NCBI GenBank assembly: GCA_025449845.1
Contig: JANWIP010000017.1
Coordinates: 124,001 to 188,000 of the forward strand
Origin: Solirubrobacteraceae bacterium
GTDB lineage: Bacteria > Actinomycetota > Thermoleophilia > Solirubrobacterales > Solirubrobacteraceae
DNA length: 64,000 bases
Direction of reading: 5' to 3'
The notes beneath the pieces are model-generated. The model did no database searches. It was not told where the DNA came from and saw nothing but the letters and a program-made list of their open reading frames with translations. Positions 55,890-62,042 of the stretch are shown piece by piece (position 1 is the stretch's first letter; each line of letters starts with the position of its first letter). A program made the position numbers and the translations under genes.

Positions 55890-56197
55890 TGTCTTTGTTG
55901 CTCCTTCCTCGAATTAGATGAACGGACTCCTTTTAAGGGTCCATATCGAGTGGTACCCGCGTTGGAGGTGCCCCAAACCAAGAAACGAATCTAGATGTTG
56001 AGCCAGGTGATCAAAGTTCGAAGTCGGAAACAATCTACAGAAACTGCAAGGCCGTGACCTCGCTTGATTCCGCAATGCTCGACGTGGAATGAGAGACAGA
56101 CCTTGTAGTCGGGGGGCTTGGGCGCAAAGATCAGTGCAGGCATGAGCTCCCTCGTAATGAGCACGAGGGTCACTCAATGGCCATAGGGAGGTAGGTG
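55890..56197. other. 308-bp gene-free stretch between divergent secreted-protein genes
   Basis: It should hold promoters for both the low-GC secreted gene and the large secreted pair. Short open frames on the minus strand here have no signal, motif or ribosome site. A small hairpin CCCTCGT/ACGAGGG (56149-56169) lies 30 bp before the large gene, near its GGGAGG ribosome site. Confidence 0.6.
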
Positions 56198-58528
56198 GTG
56201 TTCGATCTCATGATTTGGCGCTCTTGGTTGCCGCAGTCCTGGTTCCCCTCGCGGTGCGCGGGGCTGCTTTTGGTATCGGCGACGGCCCTTTCGGTTTCTC
56301 TCTGCATGGTGGATACTGTCAGCGCGTCATTGCCGGACGGGCGAGCGTGGGAGATGGTCTCGCCGCTTAACAAGGATGGAGGCGACATCGTCGGGATTGC
56401 CGGCGACAGTGGCGGTGGTGTCGTGCAGGCTGCCGCGAATGGCCAGCAGGTCACGTATGTCTCTCTCGCCTCTTTTGGGGCACCTCAGGGCGCGCCGATC
56501 GGCAGCCAGTATGTCGGTCGCAGGGACGGCGAAGCGCGGTGGTCGAACCAGAACATCAGCATGCCCATGAGCGCCCAGAGTTTTCCCCCTGGCGCAGGCC
56601 TGGGCACGCCGTTCCGTGCATTCTCTTCTGACCTGTCCAGCGGGTTGGTATGGGGTGGCCCGCGCGGTCCGCGAGGCATTTTCGAAGGTCCGCCGCTTGC
56701 CGGTGGCCCCGCAGAATACGAAAACTACTACCTGACCGGGCTTCCTGGAGGCACGCTACAGCCTCTCTTGGCCCGGGCGCCGAGCATGCCCGCGGCAGAA
56801 TTCCAGCTTGAATTTCTTGGCGCCACCCCGGATCTCAAGCGCGCCGTCATTGAGAGCCCAGCCGTGCTGGGCACCGGTGGAATCGAAGTCAACGGTGGGC
56901 ACAACCTCTATGAGTGGGAACCAGCAGCTGGGCAGTATCAGCCCATTAACGTCCTGCCGAGCGGTGCCTATGAATCTGAAAAGGTGTTGTTTGGCGGTGC
57001 TGGGGGGGCGAGAAGTCACGCGATCTCTGAAGATGGCTCGCGGGTTGTGTGGACCGCGGAATCGGCTCCATCGGCGTTGTATGTGCGCGAGGGCATCGGC
57101 ACCCCCCAGCCCGTGACAGTGCAGGCGGACGCGCCGGCGGGCGGCGGCCGGTTTCTCACAGCCAGCAGCGATGATTCGAGGGTTTTCTTTGCGGACAATC
57201 ACAAGTTGACGGCGGACTCCACAGCAGGGAACGGAGGTCTTGGGGATCTCTACAGGTTTGAGCCAGATGGTTCGATGGCCAGCCGACTGGTCGACCTGAC
57301 CATCGATCATGTGGATCCGGAAGGGGCCGAAGTGCTGGGCGTGCTGGGTGGCAGTTCGGACGGCTCATATCTGTATTTTGTCGCCAACGGCGTACTCTCC
57401 TCCGATCCTGGGATTTCCCGCGGGAATTGCACGCCCGGATCTTCCCCGGCCGGGGCGACGTGCAACCTCTATCTCTGGCACGAAGGCTGGGCAACGCCAC
57501 GTTTCATCGCGAAGTTGTCCGGCGGAGATGAGTTCGAAGAAGCTGGTTTTGCCGCCTTGGGTGCCGCATTCGACTGGGCTCCCTCGATAGATGTTCGTAC
57601 GACTCGAGTCTCACACGACGGCAACCGTGTGGTCTTCATGTCGGAAGCGAGCCTTACAGGGTATGACAACACTGTAAGGGCCGGCAACAGCTGCAGGAAG
57701 AACTTCGCGGGAGGGCCGGCGCTGCCAGCGCAGTGTGAGGAGGTCTTCGTGTATGAAGCCAGTACGAATCATTTGAACTGTGTGTCCTGTAATCCAAGTG
57801 GGGCGCGGCCGATAGGCCCGTCGGGTATACCGGGAGGAACACAGATCAGCACAAATTTTGCGCTGTATCAGTCGAGAGTCCTCTCAGAAGAAGACGTGGG
57901 GAATGCAGGTGGAGGTGCGAGTGAAGAAGGTGGTGGTGCGGGGGAAGCCGGCCCTGGGGACGTTGGTACTCGCGTTTTTTTTGACAGCGCGGATGATCTT
58001 GGCGCCGGCGACACCAACGGAGTCGAAGACGTCTACGAGTATGAGAATGGACACGTCTACCTCATTTCAGATGGAAGTAGCGCCGGAGGCTCTTCGTTTG
58101 TCGACGCGGGCGGTAACGGTAACGACGTGTTCTTCATCACGCGCGCGCAGCTCGTAGCGCAGGACACCGATCAGCTGGTTGACCTCTACGACGCCCGCGC
58201 GCCGCACGTACCTGGGGAAATGGTTGGAGCTTCGGTCACCTCTTCTTCTGCCTGCGCAGGGGAAGATTGCCGGATGCCGAGCCCTGTCGCGCCGGCGCTG
58301 GGTACGCCTGCGAGTGCTCTATTCGTTGGCTCTGGGAACGCTGTCGCTTTGCCGGCGCCGGCTACCCATCCGAAGCCTAAGGCAAAGAAGAAGAAGAGCA
58401 AGCGATCAAGGAAGAAAGGCAAGTCCAGGAAGGGCAAGACTCGAGGCAAGTCGAAGCGTCACCGGGCGTTACGAGCTGCGGGGACAGCGGGGGCTGCGGC
58501 CGGTCGATCGGGCAGGGGAGCCTCGTGA
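56198..58528 (+). CDS. Large secreted beta-propeller-like protein with Lys/Arg-rich tail
   Basis: A 776-residue protein. After a signal peptide (core GLLLVSATALSVSLCMV) comes PDGRAWEMVSPLNKDGGDIV, then repeated segments like HAISEDGSRVVWTAES, FLTASSDDSRVFFADNHKLT and TRVSHDGNRVVFMSEASLTG that look like TolB/PD40-type propeller blades. The last 50 residues are very basic (PKAKKKKSKRSRKKGKSRKG and more), suited to binding the cell wall or an acidic polymer. GTG 56198 with GGGAGG upstream is preferred to 56195. The stop overlaps the next large gene (GTGA). The family seems restricted to this bacterial group in my recollection; the function is unknown. Confidence 0.78.
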   Translation: MFDLMIWRSWLPQSWFPSRCAGLLLVSATALSVSLCMVDTVSASLPDGRAWEMVSPLNKDGGDIVGIAGDSGGGVVQAAANGQQVTYVSLASFGAPQGAPIGSQYVGRRDGEARWSNQNISMPMSAQSFPPGAGLGTPFRAFSSDLSSGLVWGGPRGPRGIFEGPPLAGGPAEYENYYLTGLPGGTLQPLLARAPSMPAAEFQLEFLGATPDLKRAVIESPAVLGTGGIEVNGGHNLYEWEPAAGQYQPINVLPSGAYESEKVLFGGAGGARSHAISEDGSRVVWTAESAPSALYVREGIGTPQPVTVQADAPAGGGRFLTASSDDSRVFFADNHKLTADSTAGNGGLGDLYRFEPDGSMASRLVDLTIDHVDPEGAEVLGVLGGSSDGSYLYFVANGVLSSDPGISRGNCTPGSSPAGATCNLYLWHEGWATPRFIAKLSGGDEFEEAGFAALGAAFDWAPSIDVRTTRVSHDGNRVVFMSEASLTGYDNTVRAGNSCRKNFAGGPALPAQCEEVFVYEASTNHLNCVSCNPSGARPIGPSGIPGGTQISTNFALYQSRVLSEEDVGNAGGGASEEGGGAGEAGPGDVGTRVFFDSADDLGAGDTNGVEDVYEYENGHVYLISDGSSAGGSSFVDAGGNGNDVFFITRAQLVAQDTDQLVDLYDARAPHVPGEMVGASVTSSSACAGEDCRMPSPVAPALGTPASALFVGSGNAVALPAPATHPKPKAKKKKSKRSRKKGKSRKGKTRGKSKRHRALRAAGTAGAAAGRSGRGAS

Positions 58529-61419
58529 TCGTCTTCGGTGCGCTCAGACGGCTTCTCCTCGCGCGGGGCGTGTTGTGTGCGCTTGCGTTCTGGGTGTCAG
58601 CAGGCGTTTTGATCGGCGCTGTGTCCACACCGTCGGTGTCGGCCTCTTTTGGCTTGCAGACTGGCAGTTTTGAAAACAAGCTCTTGAATGAAGATGGCAC
58701 GCCAGACGTTCAGGCAGGATCGCATCCATTTGAGCTGACGACGAGCTTCAAGTTCGACACAATCATCGGCGCGGGCGGCGAACCCATTCCGGACGATTCG
58801 GTGAAGGATGTCGAAGTGGAGTTGCCCGCCGGGCTGGTAGGCAACCCCACAGCGACACCAAGATGCTCGATCGCCCTGTTCAACACGCCCAATACGGGGG
58901 AGGCGTTTGGCTTGTCGGGTGCGAGTTGCCCCAATGACACGCAGGTTGGTGTGGCGCAGATCGAAATCACGCCCAACGGAGAAGGCGAACCAGTGCCATT
59001 GACACTAGGCATCTACAACCTGGTGGCACCTCCTGGCGTGCCGGCCGAGTTCGGATTCAACCCGATCGGAGTGGCCGTCGTGTTGACGCCGGCTATTCGC
59101 ACGGGCAGTGACTACGGATTGACGGTGTCTTCCAGGAACACCAATCAGACGCTGCGGATCTTTGGGGTCAAGACCACGTTCTGGGGCGTTCCAGCCGCGG
59201 CCGCTCACAACGGCGAACGCGGGGAATGCCTCGGGGGGCTGGGAGAAACGTATGCGCTTGGGGAAGAACATCCGTGTCCGGTTGAAACCGCCCCGGCCCC
59301 GTTTCTGACGCTTCCCACGAGCTGCCAAGCCACTCCCTTAGCGAGCACCATCTACGCAGACTCGTGGGAGAACCCGGTGCAGGGTCCTGAACTGTCAGGC
59401 CTGAACCCTCCTCTCGTGGCGAAGGCCGAAGCGTTCAACCACGACCTCGAAGGTCATCCAGTCGGCGTCACAGGCTGCGAACACATTGACTTCAGCCCGA
59501 CGGTCAACGCCTCGCCGACGACGACGGACGCGGGCTCGCCGACGGGCCTGTCGTTTGAAGTCTCGCTGCCCCCGAACGAAGCTCCGAACGGGCTGGCAGA
59601 GGCCGATCTGAAGGAAGCCGTGGTGTCGCTACCAGCGGGTATGTCGGTCTCGCCGTCGGCCGCGAATGGGCTGGAAGCGTGCACAGAAGAAGAGATCGCG
59701 TTGCGCTCGGCGAGCGCAACGCGCTGTCCAAACGCTTCCAAGGTGGGCACTGTCGAAATCGACACGCCGCTGCTGGAACATCCCTTGCAGGGCTCCGTGT
59801 ATCTAGCCCAGCAGGAACACAACCCGTTTGGGAGCCTGCTGGCTCTATATGTCGTCGCGGAAGGCTCGGGCGTGGTCGTGAAGCTAGCCGGTGAAGTTCA
59901 CGCCGACCCCACTACGGGCCAGCTCACGACAAGATTCGCAGGTAACCCGCCGTTTGAAGGCGCGCCGCAGCAGCCCTTCCGTCATCTGCGTGTGATGCTC
60001 TTCAACGGACCGCGTGCGGTGCTGATGACGCCGCTGACATGCGGGACATACGACCTGACAGGAACGCTGACGCCGTGGAGCGGCGGCATGCCGGCGACAT
60101 TCTCGAGTCCGTTTGCGATCAACTCGAACTGTGGCGGCGGGTTCTCGCCCTCAATGGTGGCAGGCACGACTAGCAATCAGGCGGGTGGCTTCTCGCCGTT
60201 CTCGCTGACGCTCTCGCGCTCGGACCAGGATCAGCGTTTGCGCCAGCTCAGCGTGCGCATGCCGCCGGGATTCGCGGGGATGCTCTCCAGGGTGCAGTTG
60301 TGCGGCGAACCGCAGGCAGCGGAAGGCAGGTGTCCGGAAGCAAGCAGGATCGGACACGTGACGATCGGCGCGGGCCCCGGGCCGGAGCCTGTGTTCGTAC
60401 CCCAGGCGGGCAAGCCGGTGGACCCCGTGTACCTGACGGGACCTTATGGCGGCGCGCCCTTTGGGCTGTCGATTGTCGTGCCCCCCGAAGCGGGGCCCTT
60501 CAACCTGGGAGCACCGGTGGTGGTGCGCTCGGCGATCAGGGTCGATCCACGCACGGCGCAGATCACGATCGCTTCCGATTCCTTCCCCACCATTCTCAAG
60601 GGTATCCCGCTCGATGTGCGCACGATCAACGTGCTCATCGACCGGGAAGGGTTCGCGTTCAACCCCACCAACTGCACCGCCTTCAACGTGGAGGGCACAG
60701 TGCTCTCGGATCAGGGTGTCACTGCGCCGGTGTCGAGCCGCTTCCAGGCGGCCAACTGCGCGACGCTGCCCTTCAAGCCGGCGTTCTCGGCGTCGACCAA
60801 GGCTCACCCTTCGCATAGGAACGGCGCATCGCTGACGGTGACAGTGGGCTACCCGAAGGGCACTCAGGCCAACATTGCCTCAGTGAAGGTCTCGCTGCCC
60901 AAGCAGTTGCCCTCCCGATTGACAACGCTGCAGAAAGCCTGCCCCGAAGCGACGTTTGCCGCGAACCCAGCGATGTGCCCTCCGGAGTCGTTGGTAGGGA
61001 GGGCTACCGCAACCACGCCGGTCCTGAACGTGCCGGTCACAGGTCCGGCCTATCTCGTCTCCCACGGCGGCGCGGCGTTCCCGGATCTCGTCATGATCCT
61101 TCAGGGCCAGGGCGTGACAGTCGAACTGGTGGGGGGGACGTTCGTGAGCAAGGCGGGGATCACCACGAGCACGTTTGCCTCCGTGCCCGACGTTCCGATC
61201 TCAAGCTTCGAGGTGAACCTGCCCCAGGGTCCCCACTCGGCGCTGACGGAAAACCTGCCCGCGAAGAGCAAGGGCAACTTCTGCTCGACCAAGCTCGTGA
61301 TGCCGACCACGATCGTCGCGCAGAATGGCCTGCGCGTCACACAGAACACGAAGGTTGCCGTCACCGGCTGCCCTAAGGCCAAGAAGAAGACAAAGAAGGC
61401 GCGAGGCCGGCGACACTAG
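58525..61419 (+). CDS. Giant secreted repeat protein with basic tail
   Basis: A 964-residue protein with signal peptide (core VLCALAFWVSAGVLIGAVST). The body shows about four related segments. Each starts like V.V.LPAG, followed by a Cys, CP..S.VG, and a PL.G..YL-type strand: near residues 95, 370, 570 and 790 (for example VVSLPAGMSVSPSAANGLEA and CPNASKVGTVEIDTPLLEHP). Each segment is about 200 residues. The C-terminus TGCPKAKKKTKKARGRRH is basic. It is translated by coupling (GTGA) with the preceding propeller-like protein and probably forms a surface or wall structure with it. The last 4 bp overlap the convergent gene. Confidence 0.78.
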   Translation: MIVFGALRRLLLARGVLCALAFWVSAGVLIGAVSTPSVSASFGLQTGSFENKLLNEDGTPDVQAGSHPFELTTSFKFDTIIGAGGEPIPDDSVKDVEVELPAGLVGNPTATPRCSIALFNTPNTGEAFGLSGASCPNDTQVGVAQIEITPNGEGEPVPLTLGIYNLVAPPGVPAEFGFNPIGVAVVLTPAIRTGSDYGLTVSSRNTNQTLRIFGVKTTFWGVPAAAAHNGERGECLGGLGETYALGEEHPCPVETAPAPFLTLPTSCQATPLASTIYADSWENPVQGPELSGLNPPLVAKAEAFNHDLEGHPVGVTGCEHIDFSPTVNASPTTTDAGSPTGLSFEVSLPPNEAPNGLAEADLKEAVVSLPAGMSVSPSAANGLEACTEEEIALRSASATRCPNASKVGTVEIDTPLLEHPLQGSVYLAQQEHNPFGSLLALYVVAEGSGVVVKLAGEVHADPTTGQLTTRFAGNPPFEGAPQQPFRHLRVMLFNGPRAVLMTPLTCGTYDLTGTLTPWSGGMPATFSSPFAINSNCGGGFSPSMVAGTTSNQAGGFSPFSLTLSRSDQDQRLRQLSVRMPPGFAGMLSRVQLCGEPQAAEGRCPEASRIGHVTIGAGPGPEPVFVPQAGKPVDPVYLTGPYGGAPFGLSIVVPPEAGPFNLGAPVVVRSAIRVDPRTAQITIASDSFPTILKGIPLDVRTINVLIDREGFAFNPTNCTAFNVEGTVLSDQGVTAPVSSRFQAANCATLPFKPAFSASTKAHPSHRNGASLTVTVGYPKGTQANIASVKVSLPKQLPSRLTTLQKACPEATFAANPAMCPPESLVGRATATTPVLNVPVTGPAYLVSHGGAAFPDLVMILQGQGVTVELVGGTFVSKAGITTSTFASVPDVPISSFEVNLPQGPHSALTENLPAKSKGNFCSTKLVMPTTIVAQNGLRVTQNTKVAVTGCPKAKKKTKKARGRRH

Positions 61420-62042
61420 CCGAAGCGGACCTTCCCATTGGACTTGGCCCGCGCCTGCGCGCGCTCGACCAGCTCCAGGCGCTTTATCGCGGCACGAAAC
61501 AGCAGCGTCAGCAGTCGCAGCCGAGCGTTCTCTGAGCGCAGCTCCAGCAGCTCCTGCTTGACATCGGTGCCGAACTCGACGGTGGCCGCCATGGTGTAGG
61601 CATCGAGCTGGGCCAGCTCTTCTTCACCCAGCAGCTTGTCGGTCGCCTGCTCGACTAGCTCGGCGTAGAGCCCGCGCGTCTCCTGCACCACCTCGGGGTC
61701 GGGCTCCTCCTCCTGCTCGGTGAGGAACTCCACCACGGCTGCCGGGTAGGGGAGATCGTCCTGGCGCTCCACGAGGCGGAAAGGACGGGTGCCGCGGACG
61801 ATGATGTTCAGGCGTCCATCCTCCATGCGCTCAAGCACCCGATCGATCTCACAGGCACAGCCAACGGGCTTGAGCTCGTCCTCGGAGAGCCACACGATGC
61901 CGAACTCGCGCTCGGAGTCCAGGCACTCCTCGATCATCTTGCGATAGCGGTCCTCGAAGATGTGCAGAGGCACGCTCTCGGTGGGCAACGCCACCATGCC
62001 GAGGGGGAACATCGGAAAGCCACTGTGCACCTGATCGGGCAT
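61416..62042 (-). CDS. Lon N-terminal (LON substrate-binding) domain protein
   Basis: A 208-residue stand-alone Lon-N domain protein: FPMFPLGMVALPTESVPLHI and FEDRYRKMIEECL, then FGIVWLSEDE and GRLNIIVRGTRPFRLVERQD are the family pattern. There is no AAA+ or protease part. Such proteins are common and may bind substrates or partners of a protease; the role is unknown. The end helices (RLRLLTLLFRAAIKRLELVE) are regular. It is convergent with the giant secreted gene, overlapping by 4 bp, and follows the next methyltransferase by 73 bp on the same strand. Confidence 0.88.
   Translation of the reverse strand: MPDQVHSGFPMFPLGMVALPTESVPLHIFEDRYRKMIEECLDSEREFGIVWLSEDELKPVGCACEIDRVLERMEDGRLNIIVRGTRPFRLVERQDDLPYPAAVVEFLTEQEEEPDPEVVQETRGLYAELVEQATDKLLGEEELAQLDAYTMAATVEFGTDVKQELLELRSENARLRLLTLLFRAAIKRLELVERAQARAKSNGKVRFG

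Follow-up and report, generated by a model that had tools for sequence, protein, structure and literature searches.

The two overlapping genes at positions 56198-61419 of a 64,000-nucleotide stretch (the window) of contig JANWIP010000017.1, from Solirubrobacteraceae bacterium GCA_025449845.1, belong to a large family of paralogous pairs, each consisting of a gene (A) for a predicted beta-propeller protein and a gene (B) for a protein of four predicted beta-sandwich repeats. With slightly more confidence than doubt, we read these pairs as encoding a wall-bound, two-protein surface adhesin or coat, of which the organism keeps a diversified and differentially expressed repertoire. The genome (3.27 Mb in 36 contigs, 93% complete) holds 33 loci of B, 30 of them next to an A gene, and the coding lengths of both add up to 194 kb, or 5.9% of it. 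The pairs are scattered over many contigs, sometimes only a few kilobases apart, and because 30 of them occur in the same genome their arrangement lies far beyond chance. This roughly 30-fold paralogy was missing from the original prediction, which had been made on the window, since a single window cannot reveal paralogs. The B paralogs share 41-68% identity with the window copy, and the A and B frames overlap by four nucleotides in 20 of the 30 pairs (one after reassignment of a start) and are separated by a gap of 2-3 nucleotides in five. Three B genes lack an A partner, one of these having a broken frame. B copies with broken reading frames lie at L076:2034-5152 and L086:5361-8098, and indicate that the family includes pseudogenes or assembly errors.

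In the window, gene A (56198-58528, forward strand, as are all features of the pair given below) begins with the GTG at 56198 or with a start at 56195, and its product P0001 accordingly has 776 or 777 residues. It comprises a signal-peptide-like N-terminus (residues 1-44), a predicted propeller of the PD40/TolB type (residues ~45-690) and a Lys/Arg-rich tail (the KPKAKKKKSKRSRKKGKSRKGKTRGKSKRHR region, 58373-58477). Gene B (58525-61419) starts with GTG and codes for P0002, a 964-residue protein that has a signal peptide, a Lys/Arg-rich end (KAKKKTKKARGRRH, 61375-61416) and, between the two, four beta-sandwich repeats containing paired cysteines. Its start codon overlaps the stop codon of A in the tetranucleotide GTGA (58525-58528), as in most of the paralogous pairs, pointing to translational coupling. 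The overlapping frames, the basic ends and the secretion-type N-termini, which are hydrophobic and signal-peptide-like in both proteins, are thus all present as originally described. The repeats of B are R1 (58702-59490, residues 60-322), which is variable and covaries with A, R2 (59491-60132, residues 323-536), R3 (60133-60765, residues 537-747) and R4 (60766-61374, residues 748-950), the most conserved, with a phylogeny incongruent with that of A and R1. Profile-profile comparison with hhalign bears out this four-repeat pattern, noticed earlier, with probabilities of 97.9% for R1-R2, 98.0% for R2-R3, 98.4% for R2-R4, 97.5% for R1-R3 and 93.5% for R3-R4; R1-R4 alone is weak (59%).

Structure prediction, which had been proposed as a check on the repeats, likewise gave four beta-sandwich domains in the AlphaFold model of B (mean predicted local distance difference test score, pLDDT, 84.8; predicted template modeling score 0.74). 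The model of A is a beta-propeller (mean pLDDT 74.9), and the regions of low confidence are the N-termini, some loops and the tail of A. Foldseek searches with the A model recovered TolB at E 3e-9, and the top matches (E 1e-9 to 1e-7) were propellers of TolB and of S9 peptidases, in support of the earlier description of A as propeller-like. For B, the best matches among solved structures are the MSCRAMM collagen adhesins Ace and CNA, BslA and pilins (Z 8-9). Here, R3 and R4 resemble BslA and the collagen adhesins at a middling Z of 8-9, and the match of R4 to Ace and CNA (Z 8.3-8.9, root-mean-square deviation ~4 over ~135 residues) is level with that to other sandwiches. The lack of a better match in the fold library is no evidence for a new fold. 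Sequence searches found nothing convincing for the window A or B in Pfam, NCBIfam, PHROGs or PADLOC and no relative of either in a profile search of PDB sequences. PD40 in the window A stays below the Pfam cut-off (15.8 against 20.9 bits, E 0.014), and weak TonB matches of A were rejected as artefacts of its low-complexity basic tail. The claim that the family is undescribed stands to this extent, and we found no paper on it in the literature within our reach, which excluded subscription papers.

Across the paralogs both proteins come in shorter and longer forms. A members have either ~720-860 residues, with the propeller only, or ~1000-1350, with preceding NHL and Fn3-type domains, and in the 30 A paralogs Pfam recognizes PD40 in 15 (E <= 0.01), NHL in 11 and fn3 in 13. 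B members have ~940-970 residues, or ~1060-1250 with an N-terminal DUF11-type stretch. A profile of B matches 111 of 183 genomes and 31 of 47 genera of the order Solirubrobacterales, the named relatives being metagenome-assembled genomes of Solirubrobacterales and Solirubrobacteraceae. Among the samples of the class and phylum that were searched, the full four-repeat B occurs only within this order; the distribution, for which a check over Thermoleophilia had been suggested, is not class-wide. The DUF11 matches outside the order cover only profile positions ~6-165 and, being confined to this stretch, are not B relatives. B-type repeats also recur many times in a different family of the order, there inside giant frames that stay open over 4,643 to 7,223 codons, with loci at G030:C7:254339-259504, G033:C1:251357-255334 and G027:C7:15035-24388. 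A typical Solirubrobacterales pair was also seen in a record titled Phenylobacterium (L170, SSMU01000013.1), which is probably a mis-binned contig.

The basic tails set the family apart from its surroundings. Over their last 30 residues, 58 of 62 A and B proteins (94%) reach a net basic fraction of 0.30 or more, as against 0/27 other proteins with signal peptides, 0/24 membrane proteins and 3/213 other open reading frames, this background being crude gene calls from ~0.5 Mb of stretches around the pairs rather than the whole genome. An LPxTG motif was seen in none of the 30 A and 31 B proteins within the last 60 residues, and Pfam matched neither SLH nor any other domain known to anchor proteins to the wall in the 30 A and 31 B members. 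We infer that the tails retain both proteins electrostatically on the wall. Taken together with the signal peptides, the disulfide-type pattern of cysteines and the adhesin-like folds, they point to a location at the cell surface.

The divergence of A among the paralogs is tied to that of part of B. Median amino acid identity between paralogs climbs along B, from 32% in R1 through 46% in R2 and 54% in R3 to 68% in R4. In Mantel tests on 29 pairs, the distances of each third of A correlate with those of R1 at r 0.87-0.91 (0.91-0.92 in the 17 pairs that bear a regulator, see below), and progressively less with those of R2 (about 0.67, range 0.66-0.78), R3 (about 0.39, range 0.22-0.40) and R4 (about 0.2, range 0.16-0.22). 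Because the correlation is as strong for the start of A, ~2 kb from R1, as for its end, the trend is not a matter of simple physical distance; distances of the regulator genes correlate with neither A nor B. In tree tests, the A data retain the R1 tree by the Shimodaira-Hasegawa test, not by the approximately unbiased test, and reject the R3 and R4 trees; the R4 data reject all four trees built from A and from the other repeats. From these sequence comparisons, A and R1 can be read as one unit, joined to a 3' half of B that recombines among paralogs, and their covariation probably reflects cognate contact between the two proteins.

The divergence in sequence is accompanied by differences in gene neighborhood, which define three classes of loci. 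The largest, class II, has 17 pairs with a common leader upstream of A, and in 16 of them there is a regulator of 317-368 residues in which TetR_N is fused to a winged helix of the MarR type at the C-terminus. Its family comprises L072:9396-10403 plus 18 other genes, at one for each class II operon. The regulator gene follows B immediately or, in four loci, immediately precedes A. Its association with the leader (16/17 leader pairs against 0/11 clear non-leader pairs) is highly significant (Fisher P 6e-7, with L076 and L082 excluded). The pairs of these two excluded loci have a regulator and no visible leader, L082 beginning at a contig end. Class I consists of six pairs (that of the window, those of L068, L069 and L071, and two in L070) with nine copies of a small secreted protein of low GC content, family C. 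The window copy, P0003 (55164-55889, reverse strand), of 241 residues, is divergent to A, lies in a stretch of only 50.8% GC and matches the profile of eight neighbors of the L068-L071 pairs at E 2e-48. The association of a divergent, low-GC secreted protein with the pair, already noted for the window, is hence repeated beside its closest paralogs. P0003 matches nothing in Pfam and, like P0001 and P0002, no phage or phage-defense family of PHROGs or PADLOC. Class III has five pairs (L089, L091, L095, L096, L097), accompanied by a different family of small secreted proteins, C'. A GTYAGARACA-like motif, picked after looking at the sequences, is found upstream of A in 7/11 non-leader genes within 180 nucleotides and in 8/11 within 300, with 0.03 expected per 300 nucleotides. 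It is possibly another type of promoter or operator in classes I and III. We observed it in the window (55890-56197; the copy GTCGGAAACA lies at 56023-56032, forward strand) and upstream of L069, L070, L071, L089, L095 and L097, mostly 70-180 nucleotides before A.

The class II leader is marked by a microsatellite. All 18 tracts of (CT)11 or longer in the genome are part of this element (L072-L075, L077-L081, L083-L085, L087, L088, L090, L093, L099, L195); 17 of them precede a pair, and the remaining one sits at the end of a contig. In order, it has GGAGAGG, group-specific hairpins, a hairpin made by GATGCGTCAG, a loop and CTGACGCATC, and (TC)11-15; a sigma-70-like promoter lies 227-271 nucleotides before the tract in nearly all leaders of this genome and in four of those of a relative. 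Folded singly, six leaders gave z of -1.7 to -5.2. Across 24 leaders from two species, the helices are paired in 94% of the cells compared and contain 18 double-changed cells, as against 4.7 in shuffles, with none of 500 shuffles reaching 18. Folding further suggests that a purine stretch of the leader is able to pair with the CU tract. Rfam, searched with the leaders of six loci, returned nothing. Among 24 genomes of the genus, a model of the leader finds it confidently in two only, this one and a congener with about seven clear copies, both of which have many pairs. The simple sequence repeat is a feature of the class II paralogs, with 18 copies of the tract; the window pair has neither tract nor leader, and a search of the non-leader pairs, including that of the window, found none. 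In the congener, a degenerate leader that has lost its CT tract still lies upstream of an A gene at L234:264-410 (G007:C120).

The tract may be a frame-dependent switch set by its length, or it may have a plain structural role. To the latter, in which the tract is a single-stranded or purine-pairing arm of a structured RNA, its length is of minor import and the regulator alone controls expression, we assign a probability only just short of even. The hairpin and the purine:CU helix backed by compensatory changes speak for it. So does the candidate leader peptide, which we rejected: substitutions (361/365/346 and 652/671/601 by codon position) show no third-position excess, so that there is no sign of selection on a peptide and we claim none. 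Against it, the tract varies from 11 to 15 units between copies, in a comparison of paralogs from one genome per species, though its flanks are nearly invariant, and dinucleotide tracts of this length usually slip. Moreover, 22 leaders have a start codon 84 or 93 nucleotides before the tract, with frame 0 free of stops in all 22, and the length of the tract sets where the frame so opened ends.

We propose that A and B would be exported via Sec and kept on the cell by basic tails that bind anionic polymers of the wall. B would form a rigid stalk of four Ig-like sandwiches, with A, made in fixed ratio to it by translational coupling, docking on its first, variable repeat. A would then present a variable binding face, formed by the propeller and, in the longer members, the NHL and Fn3 domains. 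Paralogous pairs would diverge in A and R1, and the 3' half of B would be shuffled and partly homogenized by recombination. Seventeen pairs would be controlled by the structured leader RNA with its CT microsatellite and by the TetR-MarR regulator, and most others, including that of the window, by another type of promoter, in association with small secreted C or C' genes. With different loci under different controls, the cell could change its coat or adhesins. A more specific form of this proposal is a Solirubrobacterales repertoire of surface receptors, with up to ~30 propeller-stalk pairs per cell, diversified and recombined A-R1 cassettes on a more constant stalk, and, in some species, stochastic switching of each locus jointly by the CT microsatellite in the structured leader RNA and by a TetR-MarR regulator of its own; this we offer tentatively and with considerable doubt.

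Several points weigh against an adhesin or coat repertoire. The window pair itself has neither the CT leader nor a regulator; a propeller can equally be an enzyme, a structural part or a binding module; and the middling Z of 8-9 of B indicates at most an Ig-like sandwich, as unrelated sandwiches reach the same score. The basic tails could have a target other than the wall, such as DNA, the covariation of A and R1 could stem from co-inheritance as a cassette rather than from contact, and the tree tests were run with few replicates and on fast trees. Of the alternatives, we regard as unlikely a purely structural envelope layer, such as one resembling an S-layer, or a coat of spores or resting cells with different copies for different life stages and without adhesive or recognition roles. 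The high copy number, secretion, tails of a wall-binding type, sandwich repeats with disulfide-type cysteines and separate regulators per locus class would all suit it; the strong divergence of A and R1 and the grafting of NHL and Fn3 domains onto A are unusual for a lattice protein, and no known S-layer domain was found. Capture or degradation of polysaccharides or peptides by A as a binding or enzymatic propeller on a B carrier, with pairs tuned to substrates as in the SusCD-type repertoires of Bacteroidota, is improbable: A does resemble the propellers of TolB, prolyl endopeptidase, GH74 and oligogalacturonate lyase, and one MarR/TetR-type regulator per class II locus fits substrate control, but Pfam-type searches including the paralogs found no catalytic domain in A or B, and when the neighbors of the pairs were compared all against all, no family of transporters or enzymes turned up repeatedly. 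The right border of the window pair is a convergent gene outside the system (61416-62042, reverse strand) with a LON substrate-binding domain (PF02190, E 7e-28), and an ordinary ZMP/ZTP riboswitch (RF01750) lies near another pair (L090:14658-14745).

Among known systems, the closest kinds are TolB/PD40 propellers, MSCRAMM adhesins, S-layer proteins, PE/PPE proteins and CT-repeat adhesins, and we assign A and B to none of them. A shares its predicted propeller with the TolB/PD40 group (PF07676), given the Foldseek match to TolB and PD40 in half of its paralogs, but P0001 lacks a visible TolB N-terminal domain and a Pal partner, and it is secreted with a poly-basic tail and coupled to B. B is predicted to be a secreted tandem of beta-sandwiches, as are other Gram-positive adhesins with Ig-like domains and the MSCRAMM proteins (CNA, Ace, SdrD), whose Ig-like domains are of the DEv-IgG type and take hold of extracellular-matrix or other ligands by dock-lock-latch. 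However, the pair differs from them in its two-protein arrangement, its basic tails and its want of LPxTG, and B has no sequence similarity to PDB chains. In the S-layer proteins of Lactobacillus (SlpA type), a strongly basic C-terminal part binds anionic wall polymers; no sequence relation to them was found, and A and B instead carry short Lys/Arg-rich tails on two different proteins. The mycobacterial PE/PPE proteins are adjacent, exported pairs of co-evolving partners, and form a large family in one actinobacterial lineage. The A/B pairs, too, are adjacent, exported, co-evolving and expanded in one such lineage, but they are beta-rich, have no PE or PPE domain by Pfam, and carry Sec-type signal peptides instead of using ESX. 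NadR, the repressor acting on Neisseria NadA, belongs to the MarR family. With regard to the microsatellite, phase-variable adhesins of Helicobacter pylori have a CT repeat, as in oipA (PMC10564699) and BabA (PMC5394467), and NadA combines a repeat with the repressor NadR (PMC2791445). Class II loci similarly have a CT tract at the 5' end of putative surface-protein genes, and combine a repeat with a regulator. In contrast to these adhesins, the tract occurs in class II only, not in the window pair, and lies in a structured leader RNA ~220 nucleotides into the transcript.

Finally, the Thermoleophilia are common in soil, and almost nothing of their cell biology has been described. With its share of 6% of a genome, its lack of a name in Pfam and NCBIfam, its paired evolution and recombination and its dedicated regulation, the family is a prime candidate for the means by which their cells meet surfaces, phages or neighbors. 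If the switched repertoire is true, free-living soil actinobacteria would have a contingency system like those of host-adapted pathogens, though one read out via an RNA element. This raises the testable questions of whether free-living soil bacteria vary their surfaces stochastically, and whether a microsatellite may act via a structured leader RNA rather than via a promoter or the gene's own frame.
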